Origin: a virus
DNA: 29,742 nt
Virus record (IMG/VR): IMGVR_UViG_3300042453_004345
Coordinates: 1 to 29,742 of that record
Strand: one strand, 5' to 3'
Part shown: piece after piece, positions 4,945 through 18,456 of the stretch
Numbering within the stretch: position 1 is the stretch's first letter
How the letters are laid out: every line of letters starts with the position of its first letter
Program-made: the position numbers and the translations under genes
The notes under the pieces: model-generated
Databases searched by the model: none
Told to the model about the DNA's origin: nothing
Seen by the model: the letters and a program-made list of their open reading frames with translations, nothing else

Positions 4945-4970
4945 ATTTACCTAAATAATCAAATGACGAG

Positions 4971-5056
4971 TTTTAAACCACCATAGGAGCGTAAGTTTAT
5001 TTTTAATGATAGTTTCCCTATTAAATTTTAAATTAAGCTTGTGTGGTGGCTTAAAA
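4971..5056 (-). other. Long hairpin, probable structured RNA or 3'-end element
   Basis: Arms at 4971-4983 (TTTTAAACCACCA) and 5044-5056 (TGGTGGCTTAAAA) are complementary over 13 bases. In minus-strand RNA all 13 positions pair (one G-U); in plus-strand RNA the same position is an A-C mismatch, so the minus transcript is the likely functional one. The enclosed 60 bases can form an inner stem around ATAG-GGAAA-CTAT. It lies between the stop of the 65-aa gene and the -35 of the late promoter. There is no clear U-tract, so it is not a standard intrinsic terminator. Confidence 0.45.
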
Positions 5057-5094
5057 TGTCTAAAAACTGTGTGTATTATTAAAACTTATGCTAC

Positions 5095-5322: not shown

Positions 5323-5361
5323 ATAATATAATAGTTTTTAATAGCTGTCAATAGCTGTCAA
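5323..5361 (-). promoter_or_regulatory. Leftward promoter with duplicated -35 box
   Basis: Minus strand: TTGACA at 5351-5346, 17-base spacer, TATTAT at 5328-5323. A TATATT two bases closer is an alternative -10. A 10-bp tandem duplication puts a second TTGACA at 5361-5356. The predicted start falls about 25 bases before the 65-aa gene. It is the mirror copy of the rightward promoter at 5922-5950. Confidence 0.65.
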
Positions 5362-5394
5362 TAGTTATTTTTATTAAATTTTAAAAAATATTTT
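5330..5394. repeat. Left arm of origin-flanking inverted repeat
   Basis: 65 bases that match the reverse complement of 5889-5943 exactly, except for an extra 10-bp tandem copy (AATAGCTGTC twice, once in the other arm). The outer part holds the promoter; the inner part is a run of A/T (TTTTTATTAAATTTTAAAAA) that could act as an UP element or unwinding region. Confidence 0.9.
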
Positions 5395-5415
5395 CATTAA
5401 TTCAAAAATTTACTG

Positions 5416-5445
5416 TTGACATATCCACAAAAGAAATCGTATGAT
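5416..5445 (+). promoter_or_regulatory. Rightward promoter inside the origin
   Basis: TTGACA at 5416-5421, 18-base spacer, TATGAT at 5440-5445. The first near-match DnaA box (5421-5429) lies between -35 and -10, so DnaA binding could block it. Transcription would run through the iterons with no gene for about 520 bases, as expected for origin-activating or primer RNA. Confidence 0.5.
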
Positions 5446-5501
5446 ACGCAGATAAAACTTAACTCAAAAAGTTATCCACAAAAATCAAAAATTATCAATT
5501 T

Positions 5502-5881
5502 TTACCTTACCAACATTACCATCATTACCAACTAAAAATAGATAGTAAGCCTCCTCAAACATCAATCTACAAAAGGGATTAGAACACCCTGACTTACCAT
5601 CATTACCAACTTTTCATTTTTTCTACGTGCGTATATATAAAAAAAATCTCATACCTTATTTTTTCTATATACATACATATTTATGGTAATGATGGTAATG
5701 ATAGTAATATATGTATATGGAAATTGATGTCCGCGACCTTACCATCTCCTTACCATCCTTACCATCTATTAAAAATAATTACTATCATTACCAACATTAC
5801 CATCTTTTACATAAAAAAGTTATCCACAAAGTTATCCACAGTATGTTGATAAAATTACTATCATTACCAACATTACCATCT
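5502..5881. repeat. 9-bp iterons, consensus TTACCAWCA
   Basis: Tandem groups start at 5507, 5516, 5525; 5594, 5603; 5739, 5750, 5759; 5779, 5788, 5797; and 5855, 5864, 5873. An inverted group lies at 5683-5707. A partial unit is at 5502. Units alternate TTACCAACA, TTACCATCA and TTACCATCT, with TTACTATCA variants. Spacing within groups is exactly 9 (once 11) bases, which differs from CRISPR or coding repeats and points to a cooperative DNA-binding protein. Confidence 0.88.
5777..5816 (+). repeat. 40-bp direct repeat, copy 1
   Basis: Identical over 40 bases to 5853-5892. Each copy holds three iterons followed by TTTTACATAAAA. Between the copies lie the two adjacent DnaA boxes, so the arrangement is iterons, DnaA boxes, iterons. 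Confidence 0.92.
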
Positions 5882-5892
5882 TTTACATAAAA
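5853..5892 (+). repeat. 40-bp direct repeat, copy 2
   Basis: Second identical copy of 5777-5816, offset by 76 bases. Its last four bases overlap the beginning of the right inverted-repeat arm. Confidence 0.92.
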
Positions 5893-5943
5893 TATTTTTT
5901 AAAATTTAATAAAAATAACTATTGACAGCTATTAAAAACTATT
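5889..5943. repeat. Right arm of origin-flanking inverted repeat
   Basis: 55 bases, the exact reverse complement of 5330-5394 minus one 10-bp unit. Contains the -35 and most of the spacer of the early promoter. Confidence 0.9.
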
Positions 5944-5950
5944 GTATAAC
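5922..5950 (+). promoter_or_regulatory. Early-operon promoter
   Basis: TTGACA at 5922-5927, 17-base spacer, TATAAC at 5945-5950. The predicted start near 5957 leads into the plus-strand early genes. A six-codon reading frame (MCNLFL) begins at 5969, just ahead of the first gene, and may be a leader peptide or chance. Confidence 0.75.
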
Positions 5951-6033
5951 ATATTTATCAAGAAATTTATGTGCAATCTTTTCTTGTAGAAGTAAAGTTA
6001 AATACAATCAACAATTTAAAAAGAGATAAAATT

Positions 6034-10006: not shown

Positions 10007-12256
10007 ATGAAATACGCAATTACAACGTTCCCCCACGTAAAAGTATCTTTTGTGGGGCAGGATGGAGTACAATTTAATGAACTCACATCTAAAAACATTT
10101 ATATGAATTTTCTTAAATACAAGGAAAAGTCAAATAGCGAAAAGGAAGAGCAGAAACATTTTATATTAGCTAGATATAAGGACACATCACTATCTAGAAC
10201 AACCGAGAATATTGACTATTATAGCGGACTGGTAATTGATTTTGATAGCTATGCCAAGAATTATAGTTATTTGAAAGAAGAATTGAAACAATCTTTAGGC
10301 AGTTATGAGTATTTGCACTATACAACATCATCACATAGCTTTGATACCCCAAGAGTAAGACTTATTGTATTTACCGATAGGAATTTTAAAGTAGAAGAGA
10401 AGTCAAACATACTTGTCAATCTTACACAGAATTTCAGTAATGATTTGATGATGGCAATGGACCAACATAATACTTTTGGCAATAACTCATTATCAAGATT
10501 GCCCTATAATTCACCTGAGTTTGAAATGGTTTACAATGAGGGATTAAAATATGAAATAGGAGGTAATTTAACAAATACTTCCTCAAATAGTAATAAAAAG
10601 CAGGAGTTGGAGGAGGTAGAATTAAAGAAAACATTTAACAATATCCCGGTACAGGATTTAACAACTGATAAAATAAAGGAGTTGCTTACCAAGTATAAAA
10701 ATATAGTAGGTTTTAATGAGACAAAAGGTTGGTTTAATGATTATGAAACTTGGGTTGAGGTTGGTAGTATTCTTCATCATCAGTTTAAAGGAAGTGAAGA
10801 GGGATTATCCTTGTGGAAAGAAATATCTTGTGAAGATGGACATACTATAGAATACACTTATAAAAAATTCTCTAATGACAAGGAAAATCCCAAGACTTTT
10901 AAAACTATAATGAAAGTAGTTAGGGATAATCAATTAGCAGTTAAGGCATCAATGCTTGACCCTAATGCACCACCTCTTAAGTTAGATAAAAGTAAACCTG
11001 TACCTCTAGATACGTTCCCACATTTACATTATGGTAAAACAGTCACAAAACCTAAGGATACATACGACAACTTTGTTCATATAATGAAGTTTTACAAAAT
11101 TGATCTAGGTGTTGATATTATAACTAAAACTATAACTATGTTCGGATCAAACGATCAGAATGCTAATGAGGTTGATATATTGGACTTGATGGAAATCAAC
11201 AACATATCAAGTAAGAGTAGGGGTAGTAAATATATTAACAGATACGCTTATGAGAATAAATACAACTCCTTTTATAACATGTTAACAAATATAAAATGGG
11301 ATGGGATAGATAGGTTAAATGACTTCTATAATACGATAAAGGTAAAACCGGAGCATATTAATCTTCGCGACCTCTATTTACTTACTTGGCTTAAGCAACT
11401 TATTTACACTAGTTGTTTTAGTAGTATGTATCCTTATGAAAGCAAGAAAATAAGCAGACTTCTTCTAGTATTGCAATCAAAACAGGAGGGTGGGAAATCA
11501 ACATGGGTTACTAACCTGTTACCTGCTAAAATGCAAAAACATTATATGTCAATAGGAGCTACCCTTAAGACTGATGACGATAGACACATGCTTGGTATTG
11601 TAAATAAACTCATAGTAGAGCTTGGAGAGATTGAGAAATCTTTTAAGCATAGCGATATAAATGCTTTCAAGGCTTTTTATGGTAGAACTATGGATACTCT
11701 CAAGATGATATATGTAACTTTTCCTGTGGATTTTGAGAGAACAACAAGTTTTATAGCTACTACTAACGACTTTTACTTTTTAAAGGATAGTACTGGTTCT
11801 ACTCGGTTTATGGTTCTGCCGCTGGACGATGATTATAAGGATGAAAAAGGATTATCCATATTTTGTAACGGCAGACATGGGATAGATATGCTCATGGTTT
11901 ATCGTCAGGTTTTTGAGAGTGAAGATTGGGTTAATTTTGAGTTAAGTGTTGATGATAAGGAAATTCAAAAGGAAATAAACAATCATTTTACAATGAATGA
12001 TACAATGGAGGATTTGTTTTTTGAAGAATTTGTTAAGGAAATTGATCATAAAGCACCTCTTTATAATTGTACTGAAATTTTAAGAAAGCTTGGTTACTCT
12101 GCTAACACCATTAATAAGAAAACAAGAAACGATCTTGCAACAATGTTGCGTAAATATAACTTTCCATATGTAAAAGAAGATAAAAAATTCAGATTAGTAT
12201 CAATTAGAAAAGAGGTTAAATTAAATGATAGTGAAATACAGAAAGAAGTTTATTAG
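10007..12256 (+). CDS. Primase-helicase (PrimPol, PriCT, VirE/VapE helicase)
   Basis: 749 aa, three parts. Residues ~1-180 form an archaeo-eukaryotic-type primase: metal-binding VIDFD (Asp78, Asp80) and SSH (His110) followed by PRVRLIVF. Residues ~205-310 resemble a PriCT domain (WVEVGSILHHQFKGSEEGLS with a following LW). Residues ~360-640 form the VirE superfamily III-like helicase: KWDGIDRL, Walker A QEGGKST (Lys497), Walker B LIVELGEIE, and TSFIATTNDFYFLKDSTGST with the Arg of the sensor region. It would unwind the origin and prime synthesis for the phage polymerase. The end overlaps the next gene by 32 bases in another frame. No strong ribosome binding site is visible. Confidence 0.88.
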   Translation: MKYAITTFPHVKVSFVGQDGVQFNELTSKNIYMNFLKYKEKSNSEKEEQKHFILARYKDTSLSRTTENIDYYSGLVIDFDSYAKNYSYLKEELKQSLGSYEYLHYTTSSHSFDTPRVRLIVFTDRNFKVEEKSNILVNLTQNFSNDLMMAMDQHNTFGNNSLSRLPYNSPEFEMVYNEGLKYEIGGNLTNTSSNSNKKQELEEVELKKTFNNIPVQDLTTDKIKELLTKYKNIVGFNETKGWFNDYETWVEVGSILHHQFKGSEEGLSLWKEISCEDGHTIEYTYKKFSNDKENPKTFKTIMKVVRDNQLAVKASMLDPNAPPLKLDKSKPVPLDTFPHLHYGKTVTKPKDTYDNFVHIMKFYKIDLGVDIITKTITMFGSNDQNANEVDILDLMEINNISSKSRGSKYINRYAYENKYNSFYNMLTNIKWDGIDRLNDFYNTIKVKPEHINLRDLYLLTWLKQLIYTSCFSSMYPYESKKISRLLLVLQSKQEGGKSTWVTNLLPAKMQKHYMSIGATLKTDDDRHMLGIVNKLIVELGEIEKSFKHSDINAFKAFYGRTMDTLKMIYVTFPVDFERTTSFIATTNDFYFLKDSTGSTRFMVLPLDDDYKDEKGLSIFCNGRHGIDMLMVYRQVFESEDWVNFELSVDDKEIQKEINNHFTMNDTMEDLFFEEFVKEIDHKAPLYNCTEILRKLGYSANTINKKTRNDLATMLRKYNFPYVKEDKKFRLVSIRKEVKLNDSEIQKEVY

Positions 12257-13040: not shown

Positions 13041-13237
13041 ATTTTATAGAAGCAGTGCAACAAATGAAAAAAGGTAATCATACGTGATTACCGGATTGGG
13101 AAGAAAGTAAGTTTTTTTGTATTCATTCTGGCATGATATACAGTTCTTGTTGGTGTGGTATAGAACATGCTTACGAAGACCCATATGTGCTTGATGAAAC
13201 GGAGTTTTTAATCAATGATTGGGAGGTAGTGGAATGA
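13037..13237 (+). pseudogene. Tad2-like (DUF2829) gene with nonsense codon 17
   Basis: The frame reads MNFIEAVQQMKKGNHT, stop (TGA 13085-13087), then LPDWEESKFFCIHSG and onward to FLINDWEVVE and the normal stop. Family members usually have Arg at the interrupted position (R-L-P-D-W), and CGA to TGA is a single transition, so a nonsense mutation is the simplest reading. The rest shows no further damage, so decay is recent or the stop is suppressed. The product would be 66 aa, similar in size to the intact gene at 7891-8082, but the middle differs and has several Cys and Trp. Confidence 0.6.
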
Positions 13238-13404
13238 TTAAATTTGTAATAGGGTTTGGAATAACCATATTATATTTTAGTATTTATGAAATAAGTAAAA
13301 GAGTTGATAGTTTTACAAACTTAATTACAACAGTAATCATATCTATTTGTTGTTACTATCTTGGAGATATGGTTGTGTATAAATATTTGGGTAATTTATC
13401 ATGA
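13234..13404 (+). CDS. 56-aa membrane protein, two hydrophobic helices
   Basis: The ATG at 13234 is eight bases after GGGAGGT and overlaps the stop of the broken Tad2-like gene; a TTG at 13219 is a poorer start. Hydrophobic helices lie at about residues 3-18 (KFVIGFGITILYFSIY) and 31-45 (TTVIISICCYYLG). Stop overlaps the nuclease start (ATGA). Unknown function. Confidence 0.65.
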   Translation: MIKFVIGFGITILYFSIYEISKRVDSFTNLITTVIISICCYYLGDMVVYKYLGNLS

Positions 13405-14519
13405 AAAAACATAGTGATTTCTCACCTAGTTCTTTTGAGCGTAGGTATTTGTGTCCAGCATCTTATATGATGGAAAAGGATTTACCACCTACTAAAAGCA
13501 AATATGCTGATGAGGGTACTTTATTGCATGAACTAGTTACTATTGATATAAGAGAGTATTTAAGAATACAAAACGATAAACCAGTACTCGACGCTTATTT
13601 ACATTATTTGGAAAATGTAAAACATAGTGAAAATATCAACAAACATCTTATTGTAGATGTTTTTAAGTCCTTTATTGAAATTAAAAAACAACTATTTGAT
13701 GTAGATGTAATTTTAGATAAAAAGTTTGCTTTGGAATATTTAGGTGATAATGAAGCAGGAACAGTGGATTGTATTATTACAGGCAATAATTTTGATGATA
13801 GACATCAAGTACACGTAATTGATTTCAAATTCGGTTATGGTGTAAAGGTTGACGCTTATATGAACTATCAACTACTTAATTATGCTAAGGGTTATATAAA
13901 AAGTAATTACCATACTATAAAGGATTATGACTTACATCTTCACATATTCCAACCGACATTTTCTAATAGCTGCTGGAGTTTGGATGAAGAAGAAAAGTAC
14001 AAATGGATTATCAGTGATAACTTTTACAAAAACGTAGTAAGTAAGTGTAAAAAGTTGGAACCTGAATTTAATCCTAGCGTAAAAGCCTGTAAATACTGCC
14101 GTGCAAAGTCTATTTGTAAGCCGTTATCTACTAACATTGTTGTTAAGGATAAGTACACTTTAACAACGGATGAGATAAAAGATTTCCTTGACAAAAAGGA
14201 GCTAATCCTGTTATATATTAACGGCTTGGAGGATTACGCTAAAGGTATTCTTGAAAACGGCGGACACATTAACGGTTATTCTTTAGTAGACAAATATTCA
14301 AATAGAAAGTGGATATATGACGCTGAAAATGAGTTAGTTAATATGTTAGGTGATAAAGCTTATAATATCAAGAAAACCATTATTGGAATAGGACAGGCAG
14401 AAAAATTATTAAGCAAAGAGCAAGTAGATAAATTAACCGAGAAAGAGTATTTAGGTAAAGTTCTGTCTTCTTGTGATGAAAAGTTAAATGAAATTGTAAA
14501 AGAATTATTAAAGGAGTAA
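13401..14519 (+). CDS. DUF2800 PD-(D/E)XK nuclease (Cas4/RecB-like)
   Basis: 372 aa. N-terminal FSPSSFERRYLCPASYMME and GTLLHEL are typical of the RecB-like exonuclease fold, with the active site continuing in GTVDCII and VIDFKFGYG (D-x-K). Cysteines at residue ~18 and in CKYCRAKSIC (about 227-236) are placed like the iron-sulfur ligands of Cas4/AddB nucleases. DUF2800 proteins occur next to DUF2815 and a phage polymerase, as here. A role in DNA end processing or recombination is likely, by family. Good size agreement with the family. Confidence 0.88.
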   Translation: MKKHSDFSPSSFERRYLCPASYMMEKDLPPTKSKYADEGTLLHELVTIDIREYLRIQNDKPVLDAYLHYLENVKHSENINKHLIVDVFKSFIEIKKQLFDVDVILDKKFALEYLGDNEAGTVDCIITGNNFDDRHQVHVIDFKFGYGVKVDAYMNYQLLNYAKGYIKSNYHTIKDYDLHLHIFQPTFSNSCWSLDEEEKYKWIISDNFYKNVVSKCKKLEPEFNPSVKACKYCRAKSICKPLSTNIVVKDKYTLTTDEIKDFLDKKELILLYINGLEDYAKGILENGGHINGYSLVDKYSNRKWIYDAENELVNMLGDKAYNIKKTIIGIGQAEKLLSKEQVDKLTEKEYLGKVLSSCDEKLNEIVKELLKE

Positions 14520-14523
14520 AGCA

Positions 14524-15165
14524 ATGGAAAATAATAAAAACAAATACGATCTACTTATAAAAAATTCAATTATAGCATTCCCAAGCGTATTTAAAATGTC
14601 AGTAATACCTGGGTATGAAAATAGTGAGCCAGCATATAGAATCTATTTTCTTTTTGATAAGAAAACACAAACAGATACTATAAACAAAATCAAATCCATT
14701 TTTGAACAGATGGGTTTAGAACACGGATTTAAACCAAGTAGTAAAAATACTCAATGTTTTAGAGACGGCGATGAGTTAGCTGAAGAAGACCCAAAACATA
14801 GTGTATATAAAGGTTACTATAGGTTATTTGCAAAATCAGGTAAATCACCAGACGGAAGTGTTATAAGACCCCATGTATGTAAAATAAAAGAGGGTAAGGC
14901 AATACCGGTTATGGAAAGCGACGAGTTAATTTACGGCGGTGCTATTTGCAGCGGATATGTTAACTTTTACTTCTATGGTAAAGGTAAGCCTAACAAAGGA
15001 ATAGCTTGTAGTCTTCACACTGTTGTATTTAATAAGCATGGAACACGTCTTGGTATTGGTGCTATAGATGCTTCAAGTAAGTTTCTTGATATGGGTGATA
15101 GTGAAGAAGTAACAATACCTACCAATCAGGAAAACACAGCAGAAAACGAAGTAGATTTATTCTAG
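14524..15165 (+). CDS. DUF2815 single-stranded DNA-binding protein
   Basis: 213 aa behind AAGGAG, 4 bases after the nuclease stop. Pattern FRDGDELAEEDP, YYRLFAKSGKSPDGSVIRPH and, later, YGGAICSGYVNFYFYGKGKP fits the DUF2815 family, phage OB-fold-like ssDNA-binding proteins found between DUF2800 and polymerase genes. The acidic C-terminal tail (ENTAENEVDLF) resembles the SSB tails that dock partner proteins. It should coat single strands during replication and recombination. Confidence 0.85.
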   Translation: MENNKNKYDLLIKNSIIAFPSVFKMSVIPGYENSEPAYRIYFLFDKKTQTDTINKIKSIFEQMGLEHGFKPSSKNTQCFRDGDELAEEDPKHSVYKGYYRLFAKSGKSPDGSVIRPHVCKIKEGKAIPVMESDELIYGGAICSGYVNFYFYGKGKPNKGIACSLHTVVFNKHGTRLGIGAIDASSKFLDMGDSEEVTIPTNQENTAENEVDLF

Positions 15166-15177
15166 CATATTAACAAA

Positions 15178-16917
15178 ATGAAATGGTTCTTGGATACCGA
15201 GTGTTATCCTAACTATTTTCTTATCGTACTCAAGTCTTTAGATGGTCAGATATTGGAGTTTGAGTACGATCATGAAACTAGTTTTGATAAAGCACAACTC
15301 GTTAATATATTATCACGCGATCTTACAATAGGTTTTAATTCCAGATTTTATGATATTCCTATGATTATGAGGTTTATTAAGGAAGATGATAAACCAACTA
15401 ATGATCAGTTAAAAAGATTGTCTGATGATTTGATACTTTCTGATAATAGTTTTGATATTATTAGTAATAATTTCTTATGGACACCTCGCAAGTGGAATCA
15501 TATTGATATAATTAGAGTGTTGCCAAGTAAAGGTTCACTTAAAATGTATGGTGCAAGAATTCATACTAGAAAATTACAGGATTTACCTTACGATCCGTCA
15601 AAAGTACTTACAAGAGAAGAGAAAAACATACTTAAAGATTATTGTATTAATGACGTTGATATTACAAGAGATTTGTATTTGCAAATACATGATGAATTAA
15701 AGCTTAGATGGGAAATAGGAAAAGAACTAGGTGTTGATTGTAGAAGTAAGTCAGATGCGGATATTGCAGAGATTTATTTTAAAAATAAGTTTGCAGATAG
15801 TTTTATTCCAAAAGAAAAATCAATAAGATTTAAATACAAACCACCTCATTATTTATATTATGATAATGAGAATATAAATAATATTTTACAGGAAATAACT
15901 AGTTTTGAATTTACAGATAAAACCAATTTGAAGAAAGATGTTAGTTTTGTCGGCAAGGAAATAAAAACCAAGACAAATAGTTTTACAATAGGGATTGGTG
16001 GGCTTCATTCAAAAGAGGAAAGTATATCAGTATTTACAAATGATAATCAGTTTTTGATAGATATTGATGTCACTTCATATTATCCAAGTATTATTATAAA
16101 CAATGGGATATATCCAAGTAATATAGGCAAGGAATTTCTGGAATTATATAAGTCCTTGCGAGATAGGCGTCTGCAAATAAAGGATAAGGCAAGTACTCCT
16201 AGTAAGTTTTACAAGATCGTACTTAATGGAACTTTTGGCAGACTAGGTTATAAGAAGAGTATTATGTATGATTTAGAAAAAATGATACAAACTACTATAA
16301 CTGGTCAACTGTGTTTATTAATGCTTATTGAAGAGTTGGAAAAACATGGGTTTGAAATAATATCAGGTAATACTGACGGACTTACTGTAATGGGAAAAAT
16401 AAGTAATACTGATAAGTTTAATGAGATATTAGAGAAATGGGAGTTTTTAACAGGTTTTGAGCTAGAAAAAACACATTACGATAGGATTTATATAAGAGAT
16501 GTTAATAACTACTTGGCAATAAAGTCTGATGGCGGAGTTAAGACTAAAGGATTTTTAAGCATGAATGATTTATCAAGGAACGCTCATCTTGGAATAGTAA
16601 AAAAAGCTGTTAAGAATTACCTTACAAACGAATATCCTATAGAAAATACTATTAGAAACGGAGCAAAAGAAGATTATATCTTAACCAAGAAAACAAAGTT
16701 TGGTGCTAATTTTAAGGGTGAGTATCTAGGTAAAGTTGTTCGCTGGTATTATAGAACTGACGGGGATTATATTCTAAATATGAAAGGACATAAAGTACCG
16801 GATGCAAATGGTGCATATCCAATAATGAACTTGGATGATGAGATGGTTAATATTGATTATACAAGATATTATCAGGAAACAATTAAAACATTAAAAACGA
16901 TAGGAATTAGTTTATGA
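15178..16917 (+). CDS. Family B-type DNA polymerase with 3'-5' exonuclease
   Basis: 579 aa. The DnaQ-like exonuclease shows FLDTECY (Asp6, Glu8), IGFNSRFYDIP, and YCINDVDITRDLY. The polymerase shows motif A DVTSYYPSI (Asp297), motif B KIVLNGTFGRLG (Lys346, Asn350) and motif C GNTDG (Asp400). In motif C the first aspartate of the usual DTD is Asn398; the second, which binds metal, is kept. It is short for the family, with compact palm and thumb regions. Phage clusters with DUF2800/DUF2815 often carry a family A polymerase, so a B-type enzyme here is a notable swap. Replicates phage DNA. Confidence 0.85.
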   Translation: MKWFLDTECYPNYFLIVLKSLDGQILEFEYDHETSFDKAQLVNILSRDLTIGFNSRFYDIPMIMRFIKEDDKPTNDQLKRLSDDLILSDNSFDIISNNFLWTPRKWNHIDIIRVLPSKGSLKMYGARIHTRKLQDLPYDPSKVLTREEKNILKDYCINDVDITRDLYLQIHDELKLRWEIGKELGVDCRSKSDADIAEIYFKNKFADSFIPKEKSIRFKYKPPHYLYYDNENINNILQEITSFEFTDKTNLKKDVSFVGKEIKTKTNSFTIGIGGLHSKEESISVFTNDNQFLIDIDVTSYYPSIIINNGIYPSNIGKEFLELYKSLRDRRLQIKDKASTPSKFYKIVLNGTFGRLGYKKSIMYDLEKMIQTTITGQLCLLMLIEELEKHGFEIISGNTDGLTVMGKISNTDKFNEILEKWEFLTGFELEKTHYDRIYIRDVNNYLAIKSDGGVKTKGFLSMNDLSRNAHLGIVKKAVKNYLTNEYPIENTIRNGAKEDYILTKKTKFGANFKGEYLGKVVRWYYRTDGDYILNMKGHKVPDANGAYPIMNLDDEMVNIDYTRYYQETIKTLKTIGISL

Positions 16918-17679: not shown

Positions 17680-18456
17680 ATGAATAATATTACAATAATA
17701 GAACACAAAGAATTACAAAAGGCTGTATCTGCTAGAGAGTTGTATGAGTTTTTAGAAGTTAGGACTGATTTTACTGACTGGTGTAAAAGAAGTAATGAAT
17801 ACTTAGATTTTCAAGAAAATACAAATTATATAGTTTTCCTCAAAAATGAGGTAAATTCAGAAAAACGCAGAGGTAAGCCATCTGTAGACTATTTTTACAC
17901 TATTGATGCTGCTAAAGAAATTTCAATGTTACAAAGGAGTGAGAAAGGAAAAGAAGCTCGTAAGTACTTTATTGAATGTGAAAGACAATTGAAAGAACAG
18001 CAATTAGCAGTGCCTAACTTTTCTAACCCTGTTGAAGCAGCTTTAGCTTGGATTGAAGAATATAAAGCAAAACAATTGGCAATAGAGGAAAGAGACATTG
18101 CTATAAAAACAAAATCTCAAATTAATAATAAAATAACCGCTACTGCAATGGCTAGAGCGTCCGTAGAGACACGAAGAGCAAATAAATTAGCAGATGAACT
18201 TGGTATCGGTAAAAAATTCAAACAGGTTAGAGCTATAGAATGGTTGTCTGATTATTTTGATATTTCAATAGTTAGTTTTTATTCACAATTTGGTAAAGCA
18301 CTAAATAAATTCTCAAAAGATAATGGTTTTGAAGTAAAAATCATAGATGACTCAAAATATGGTAAAGTTAATAATTATCATATAAACGCTATTGAGGGGT
18401 TTAAAAAATATTTAGATAATAATCCTTGTGCATTACCAAAATATAGATTTGCATAA
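17680..18456 (+). CDS. AntA/AntB-type phage antirepressor
   Basis: 258 aa, AGGTTA seven bases upstream. Residues ~17-105 carry the AntA/AntB domain (VSARELYEFLEVRTDFTDWC, then YFYTIDAAKEISMLQRSEKG and EARKYFIECERQL). The C-terminal half (ITATAMARASVETRRANKLA, then VRAIEWLSDYF and a YGKVNNYHINAIEGF segment) is a winged-helix-like domain common in antirepressors of temperate Gram-negative phages. Such proteins neutralise a repressor, favouring lytic growth. No repressor or integrase lies in this window. It sits between the VRR-NUC and SNF2 genes with its own upstream gap, so it may be an insertion into that module. Confidence 0.85.
   Translation: MNNITIIEHKELQKAVSARELYEFLEVRTDFTDWCKRSNEYLDFQENTNYIVFLKNEVNSEKRRGKPSVDYFYTIDAAKEISMLQRSEKGKEARKYFIECERQLKEQQLAVPNFSNPVEAALAWIEEYKAKQLAIEERDIAIKTKSQINNKITATAMARASVETRRANKLADELGIGKKFKQVRAIEWLSDYFDISIVSFYSQFGKALNKFSKDNGFEVKIIDDSKYGKVNNYHINAIEGFKKYLDNNPCALPKYRFA

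Follow-up and report, generated by a model that had tools for sequence, protein, structure and literature searches.

What is the function of the repeat-dense gap at positions 5330-5943 of the phage contig IMGVR_UViG_3300042453_004345, and which protein reads its repeats? The contig, a 29.7-kb record in IMG/VR analyzed here over its whole 29,742 nt (the window), carries this non-coding gap between leftward terminase genes and rightward early genes. The original prediction, made from the letters of the window, described a compact iteron origin that would use host DnaA together with an iteron-binding protein of the phage. The region is very probably the replication origin of the phage, and sequence comparison makes it likely that it is an origin of the kind known from Staphylococcus aureus pathogenicity islands (SaPIs) and phage-inducible chromosomal islands (PICIs), here in full-size phages, with a self-loading primase-helicase as the recognizing protein and an exchangeable recognition word within a fixed layout. 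The argument is built on what can be read directly from the genomes, namely the anatomy of the region, a layout conserved among relatives, the swap of the iteron word within that layout, and covariation of the helicase C-terminus with the word in two groups of phages.

The DnaA boxes, iterons and AT-rich stretch of the window are arranged as follows:

5421, plus strand: DnaA box with one mismatch
5472 to 5480, plus strand: perfect DnaA box, TTATCCACA
5506 to 5532, plus strand: outer left iteron set, three direct copies in 9-bp steps
5541 to 5549, minus strand: single inverted iteron, 17 bp past the first set, its position and orientation shared by classes C, C2, D and E of the relatives
5593 to 5610, plus strand: inner left iteron set, two direct copies with a 9-bp step
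5611 to 5682: AT-rich stretch between the inner iteron sets, 74-82% AT in 50-bp steps, presumed melting site
5683 to 5708, minus strand: inner right iteron set, three inverted copies in 8-9 bp steps
5738 to 5766, plus strand: iteron set, three direct copies
5778 to 5804, plus strand: iteron set, three direct copies in 9-bp steps, inside the first 45-bp repeat unit
5820 to 5840, plus strand: tandem DnaA boxes, both perfect TTATCCACA, starting at 5820 and 5832, 12 bp apart
5844, minus strand: DnaA box with one mismatch
5854 to 5880, plus strand: iteron set, three direct copies in 9-bp steps, inside the second 45-bp repeat unit

The three perfect DnaA boxes of the original prediction (5472, 5820 and 5832) are confirmed, and its near box becomes two one-mismatch sites; the mean number of perfect boxes in shuffles of the region is 0.01, and the rest of the window holds one. 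The 9-bp phasing was also described correctly, as the period within iteron groups is mostly 9 bp, and the repeat around the DnaA pair measures 45 bp at 96% identity (units 5777-5821 and 5853-5897). The claim of about seventeen TTACCAWCA iterons holds for the count, which fits the looser core TTACYAWC (17 occurrences; shuffles average 0.16 and reach 3 at most), but not for the word, since the strict form has only seven matches, six of them inside the region, and accounts for a minority of the iterons. The shorter core TTACYA occurs 18 times in the region, 14 on the plus and 4 on the minus strand.

Relatives were found by polymerase, early-gene and helicase searches, and comprise a close group (G003-G007, L158, L159, L161 and L164) and three more distant phages (L278-L280); several of their contigs are fragments. 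In relatives whose contig reaches the gap, its flanks align to the window at 75-98% in pieces, and two adjacent TTACYAWC words, searched as a pattern, are missing in most of those with an aligned gap. At the corresponding genomic place an origin is seen in six IMG/VR phage types, each with its own iteron word: TTACCAWCA in the window, L158 and L060 (class A), ATACCATC in G006 and L164 (class B), GTGAATAAG in G007, L159, L161 and G005 (class C), GTGAGTAAG in L278, ATGGTYATC in L279, and ATTGYYAWC in L280. The expectation that relatives would carry iterons at this place is therefore borne out for the arrangement but not for TTACCAWCA, which most of them lack. The common layout begins with three direct copies (+9+9+), 17-20 bp, one inverted copy, 48-52 bp and two direct copies (+9+), and continues with 69-90 bp that include an AT-rich stretch, two or three inverted copies, and direct sets ending in +9+9+. 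Class B is an exception, being without the single inverted copy and having 10-bp spacing in part. The layout maps were built from short class-specific patterns picked by eye, so that single iteron hits are soft; the spacings recur in independent sequences. With iterons far above chance and their layout kept under six words, the predicted iteron origin is well supported.

A scan of IMG/VR with the class A word pair gave mostly chance hits among the matches listed, the useful ones being L060 and L128, of which the latter is the same contig as L158. BLASTN of the region against phages returned only DnaA-box pairs in Lactococcus and uncultured phages, and tandem DnaA boxes across IMG/VR were set aside as a guide because most of them lie beside other repeats in contexts unrelated to this one. 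In L163 the early gene is present, with no helicase, polymerase or origin found, and the phage was not used because the record may be a fragment. Among the distant relatives, L278 shows dense short repeats around ATAGCCA/AGAGCCA at 13200-14000. The spacer between the left iteron sets (5550-5585 of the window; CATCAATCTACAAAAGG here, CATCAGTCTACAAAAGG in class C) stays recognizable though the surrounding iterons are replaced, and a shared hairpin sought in the spacer between iteron sets gave no consistent fold.

The best candidate for the iteron-binding protein is encoded in the early block, whose genes of concern here are:

10007 to 12256, plus strand: primase-helicase of 749 residues, presumed initiator
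14524 to 15165, plus strand: Gp2.5/Enc34-like single-strand DNA-binding protein
15178 to 16917, plus strand: phage DNA polymerase (phrog_1252), presumed to copy DNA after initiation
17680 to 18456: AntA-type antirepressor gene

The primase-helicase contains a PriCT-2 domain (residues 242-303; family match 1e-7) and a VapE-like helicase domain (residues 426-610; 3e-24), and the core of the helicase part matches the solved chain 7pds ("Similar to D. nodosus vapE") at E 3e-9. This match, together with the features that the region shares with SaPI and PICI origins, is the reason for reading it as such an origin in a whole phage. When the protein was aligned between phages of known iteron word, its two ends gave different groupings. 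The N-terminus pairs the window with G005 and G006 with G007, whereas the C-terminus pairs G005 with G007, the two GTGAATAAG phages. Informative sites that support the background grouping versus the iteron class number 122 vs. 7 over residues 1-390, 12 vs. 41 over residues 391-640, and 2 vs. 38 over residues 641-725; in residues 726-749 and in the next gene the background grouping returns. In the segment 684-727, which lies in a predicted winged helix, the two class C phages are 100% identical while their N-termini are 76% identical; conversely, classes B and C share 50% of this segment and 92% of the N-terminus, and classes A and C 59% and 89%, respectively. The pair L279 and L280, with similar words, is 89% identical in the segment and 65% in the N-terminus. 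Only R724 and E725, at the would-be wing, proved exclusive to class C together with its look-alike L278, and they are too few to serve as proof. Under the rule that word and C-terminal domain match, contig 3300033571_026166 is predicted to have GTGAATAAG iterons and contig 3300023184_007065 ATACCATC iterons, in origins that fall beyond the sequence available for either.

The same association was encountered in cultured phages. Jilinvirus coliphages, which have a VapE-type primase, were reached by searching GenBank phages with the L279 helicase, and they fall into two word types: GGGACTA iterons in ECO1230-10 and ET-SD-TH, and GTCACC iterons in seven phages (ep3, ECOO78, HeidiAbel/Bas97, PT1, Alux-21, Arya and KA2-1). 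Bas97 is an isolate studied on Escherichia coli K-12 with restored O-antigen (PMC11990801). As in the window, two iteron sets flank an AT-rich region. The array sits roughly 2 kb downstream of the primase and ahead of the late activator and lysis genes, with terminase at a distance of about 2 kb. Between ECO1230-10 and its closest relatives, the outer flanks show ~97% identity. Over the final 55 residues of the helicase, phages of different word types share 62-65% identity and those of one type 87-100%, and in the remainder of the protein the similarity of ECO1230-10 to the others is about that of Arya. The C-terminus of ET-SD-TH, whose record reads with interrupted frames so that its helicase was searched by pieces, is 97% like that of ECO1230-10 and 61% like that of ep3. 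Two further records deserve mention: the annotation of Salmonella phage PT1 (L288, 3082-5386) splits the primase gene in two, with no single frame, and the gene may thus carry a frameshift or sequencing error, and Pseudomonas phage PPpW-3 (L283, 22400-22760) has 17 CGCAGCC copies, mostly 12 bp apart, downstream of the primase and within annotated coding sequence.

Several observations weigh against a SaPI/PICI-like origin read by the primase-helicase. When shared early genes were tested by informative sites, the iteron word was tracked by the helicase C-terminus and the DNA polymerase alone, and a polymerase block also pairs the class C phages G005 and G007 (46 sites vs. 8); in addition, a 151-aa gene (DUF7448) is common only to the two class C phages compared. 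Because the genomes are mosaic and the polymerase groups in the same way, the match within the window group could by itself be chance linkage. The end of the origin lies 4.1 kb upstream of the start of the helicase gene, not directly 3' as in PICIs. Finally, the assignment of residues ~665-735 of the primase-helicase to a winged-helix domain is weak: the model of this C-terminus is of moderate confidence, with a predicted local distance difference test (pLDDT) score of 74, and Foldseek with this model gave no significant structural match, the best VIA Z being 5.1. A full-length AlphaFold model was discarded as unusable (pLDDT 38). Chance linkage is nonetheless unlikely, because the Jilinvirus phages repeat the helicase link independently. 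The DNA polymerase of the two GTGAATAAG phages (L015:6692-8479 and L013:9585-11372) exceeds that of the other relatives compared by 16 residues.

In the proposed mechanism, the C-terminal domain of the VapE-type primase-helicase would bind the 9-bp iterons. The inner iteron sets oppose each other across the AT-rich stretch, which suggests that two helicase hexamers could load head to head, melt this stretch and then travel apart. The fused primase would prime synthesis, to be carried on by the phage polymerase and single-strand DNA-binding protein, while the DnaA boxes and the internal promoter-like site probably help opening but would be dispensable in evolution. Iteron word and helicase recognition domain would change in step under a constant spatial layout, and related phages would therefore differ in replication specificity.

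The components of this scheme are known from satellites, and it is their use in whole phages that is new. PICI origins consist of an AT-rich region flanked by two iteron sets (PMC6092414), as do those of the window relatives and Jilinvirus. A VapE/D5-type helicase, sometimes fused to a primase, is common to both systems (PMC7581432, PMC6092414). In SaPI Rep helicases it is the C-terminal domain that recognizes the short iterons, and loading as two hexamers is thought to follow this recognition or accompany it (PMC7581432, PMC9894130). On the other hand, the SaPI/PICI origin lies directly 3' of rep, while that of the window is 4 kb upstream of the helicase gene and that of Jilinvirus 2 kb downstream; the close group of the window has perfect DnaA boxes; and the window phage, unlike PICI satellites, encodes its own terminase, DNA polymerase, exonuclease, single-strand DNA-binding protein and lysozyme. 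The staphylococcal cassette chromosome mec (SCCmec) protein Cch2 is a D5-type helicase related to SaPI5 Rep, and its isolated C-terminal domain binds a repeat-bearing region (PMC7581432), although that putative origin has three repeats, sits directly downstream of its gene and belongs to a chromosomal cassette. In the phage-inducible chromosomal island-like elements (PLEs) of Vibrio cholerae, a paired exchange of recognition word and domain is also seen, and both covariation and replication of cognate pairs only were shown experimentally (PMC8263062). Their RepA, however, belongs to the RepA_N type and has no predicted helicase or primase (PMC7145576), the iterons are ~30 bp, and the PLE is a satellite element.

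An unlikely alternative is a DnaA-led, plasmid-like iteron origin, in which the DNA would be opened by host DnaA and the iterons bound by a small early protein distinct from the helicase. Iteron plasmids of the P1, F and RK2 type do combine iteron arrays, DnaA boxes and an AT-rich region, but their iterons are ~17-22 bp and a dedicated Rep protein recruits the host helicase, whereas the period in the window is 9 bp and the phage encodes a helicase. The three perfect boxes, including the tandem pair, are conserved as perfect boxes in the close relatives and L060, and several early genes have no known family, both as a DnaA-led origin would have it. Yet L278 has one degenerate box (one mismatch), L279 has no box within one mismatch of the consensus, and L280 has a single DnaA-like site at chance level (such sites occur 14 times elsewhere in the window), with the iteron layout intact. 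As the boxes are missing in two distant relatives, host DnaA would be at most accessory; it probably aids the origin in the close group, so that the predicted use of DnaA is plausible for the window phage and its closest relatives but not conserved. Among the proteins scanned, which cover all but several small open reading frames and include several without a family, no plasmid-type Rep initiator family was met. No shared early gene tested other than the helicase C-terminus and the polymerase follows the word, and Jilinvirus has the same helicase link. A phage-encoded iteron-binding protein, as originally predicted, is thus well supported, with the C-terminal domain of the helicase, not a small early DNA-binding protein, as the best candidate.

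It is very improbable that the region is mainly a control region, with repeated operators of a repressor/antirepressor system that set two outward promoters and no role in replication. Mirrored promoters in the arms of an inverted repeat, the internal promoter-like site and the AntA-type antirepressor gene would suit such a role, but L159 and L164 have lost the left promoter arm and keep the iteron layout, and operators would not be expected to show opposed sets, an AT-rich centre or a link to the helicase C-terminus. Just as doubtful, if not slightly more so, is a packaging or partition site with a coincidental helicase link, for which the proximity to terminase genes in the window relatives and the mosaic genomes could be cited. 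The Jilinvirus array, some 2 kb away from terminase, shows the same features and covariation, and in the window group the large and small terminase subunits are 86-98% identical across iteron classes.

If the origin is indeed read by the primase-helicase, its presence in phages of full size, cultured coliphages like HeidiAbel (Bas97) among them, points to a common source of phage and satellite replicons. The natural swaps provide a set of paired domains and words from which the recognition code of VapE-type helicases may be learned, and let one ask whether replication specificity isolates related phages or excludes satellites. A more speculative proposal, put forward tentatively, is that in many small tailed phages the origin forms a specificity module of two parts, its layout fixed and its words exchangeable, in which word and C-terminal domain are swapped as a pair between near-identical phages though kilobases apart, and that conflict over the origin drives the swaps. 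By analogy with PLE satellites, where an origin-directed nuclease was proposed as the selecting force, such conflicts might involve satellites using the phage helicase, origin-directed nucleases or competition between co-infecting phages (PMC8263062).

Framing the origin are the arms of an inverted repeat (5340-5394 / 5889-5943; 55 nt, 95% complementary), which hold outward-facing sigma70-like promoters; both the repeat and the mirrored promoters had been noted in the original prediction and are borne out:

5340 to 5394: left arm, with a leftward sigma70-like promoter (-35 TTGACA from 5351 down, -10 ending at 5323)
5416 to 5445, plus strand: internal promoter-like site TTGACA-18-TATGAT, kept in all close relatives
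5889 to 5950: right arm and rightward early promoter (TTGACA 5922-5927, 17 nt, TATAAC 5945-5950)

The near DnaA box at 5421 sits in the spacer of the internal site, and L159 and L164, which are without the left arm, are also without the small leftward gene.

The window as a whole consists of a leftward packaging block (terminase large subunit and probable small subunit), a rightward early block (primase-helicase, exonuclease, single-strand DNA-binding protein, DNA polymerase, antirepressor and SNF2-type helicase) and a leftward late block that includes lysozyme. Leftward reading frames run off the contig at positions 1 and 29742 and relatives attain lengths of 34-42 kb, which makes it probable that the genome is incomplete in this record. 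A search of bacterial genomes with the DNA polymerase found no prophage, and hence no host is assigned. GC skew, proposed as a check, does have a minimum near 6000, but was rejected as evidence for the origin because at each of the two switches of coding strand, ~5.3-6 kb and 19.8 kb, it goes with the strand and is thus not independent. An Rfam search at the origin gave no RNA family. Between the leftward genes at 4970-5070 lies an imperfect inverted repeat, TTTTAAACCACCATAGGAGCG ... TGTGGTGGCTTAAAA, which is kept in all close relatives, recognizable in L280, and perhaps a terminator or structured element. On the other side, directly after the rightward promoter, the early leader at 5958-5992 is nearly identical in close relatives and contains a candidate hairpin (CAAGAAA...TTTCTTG).
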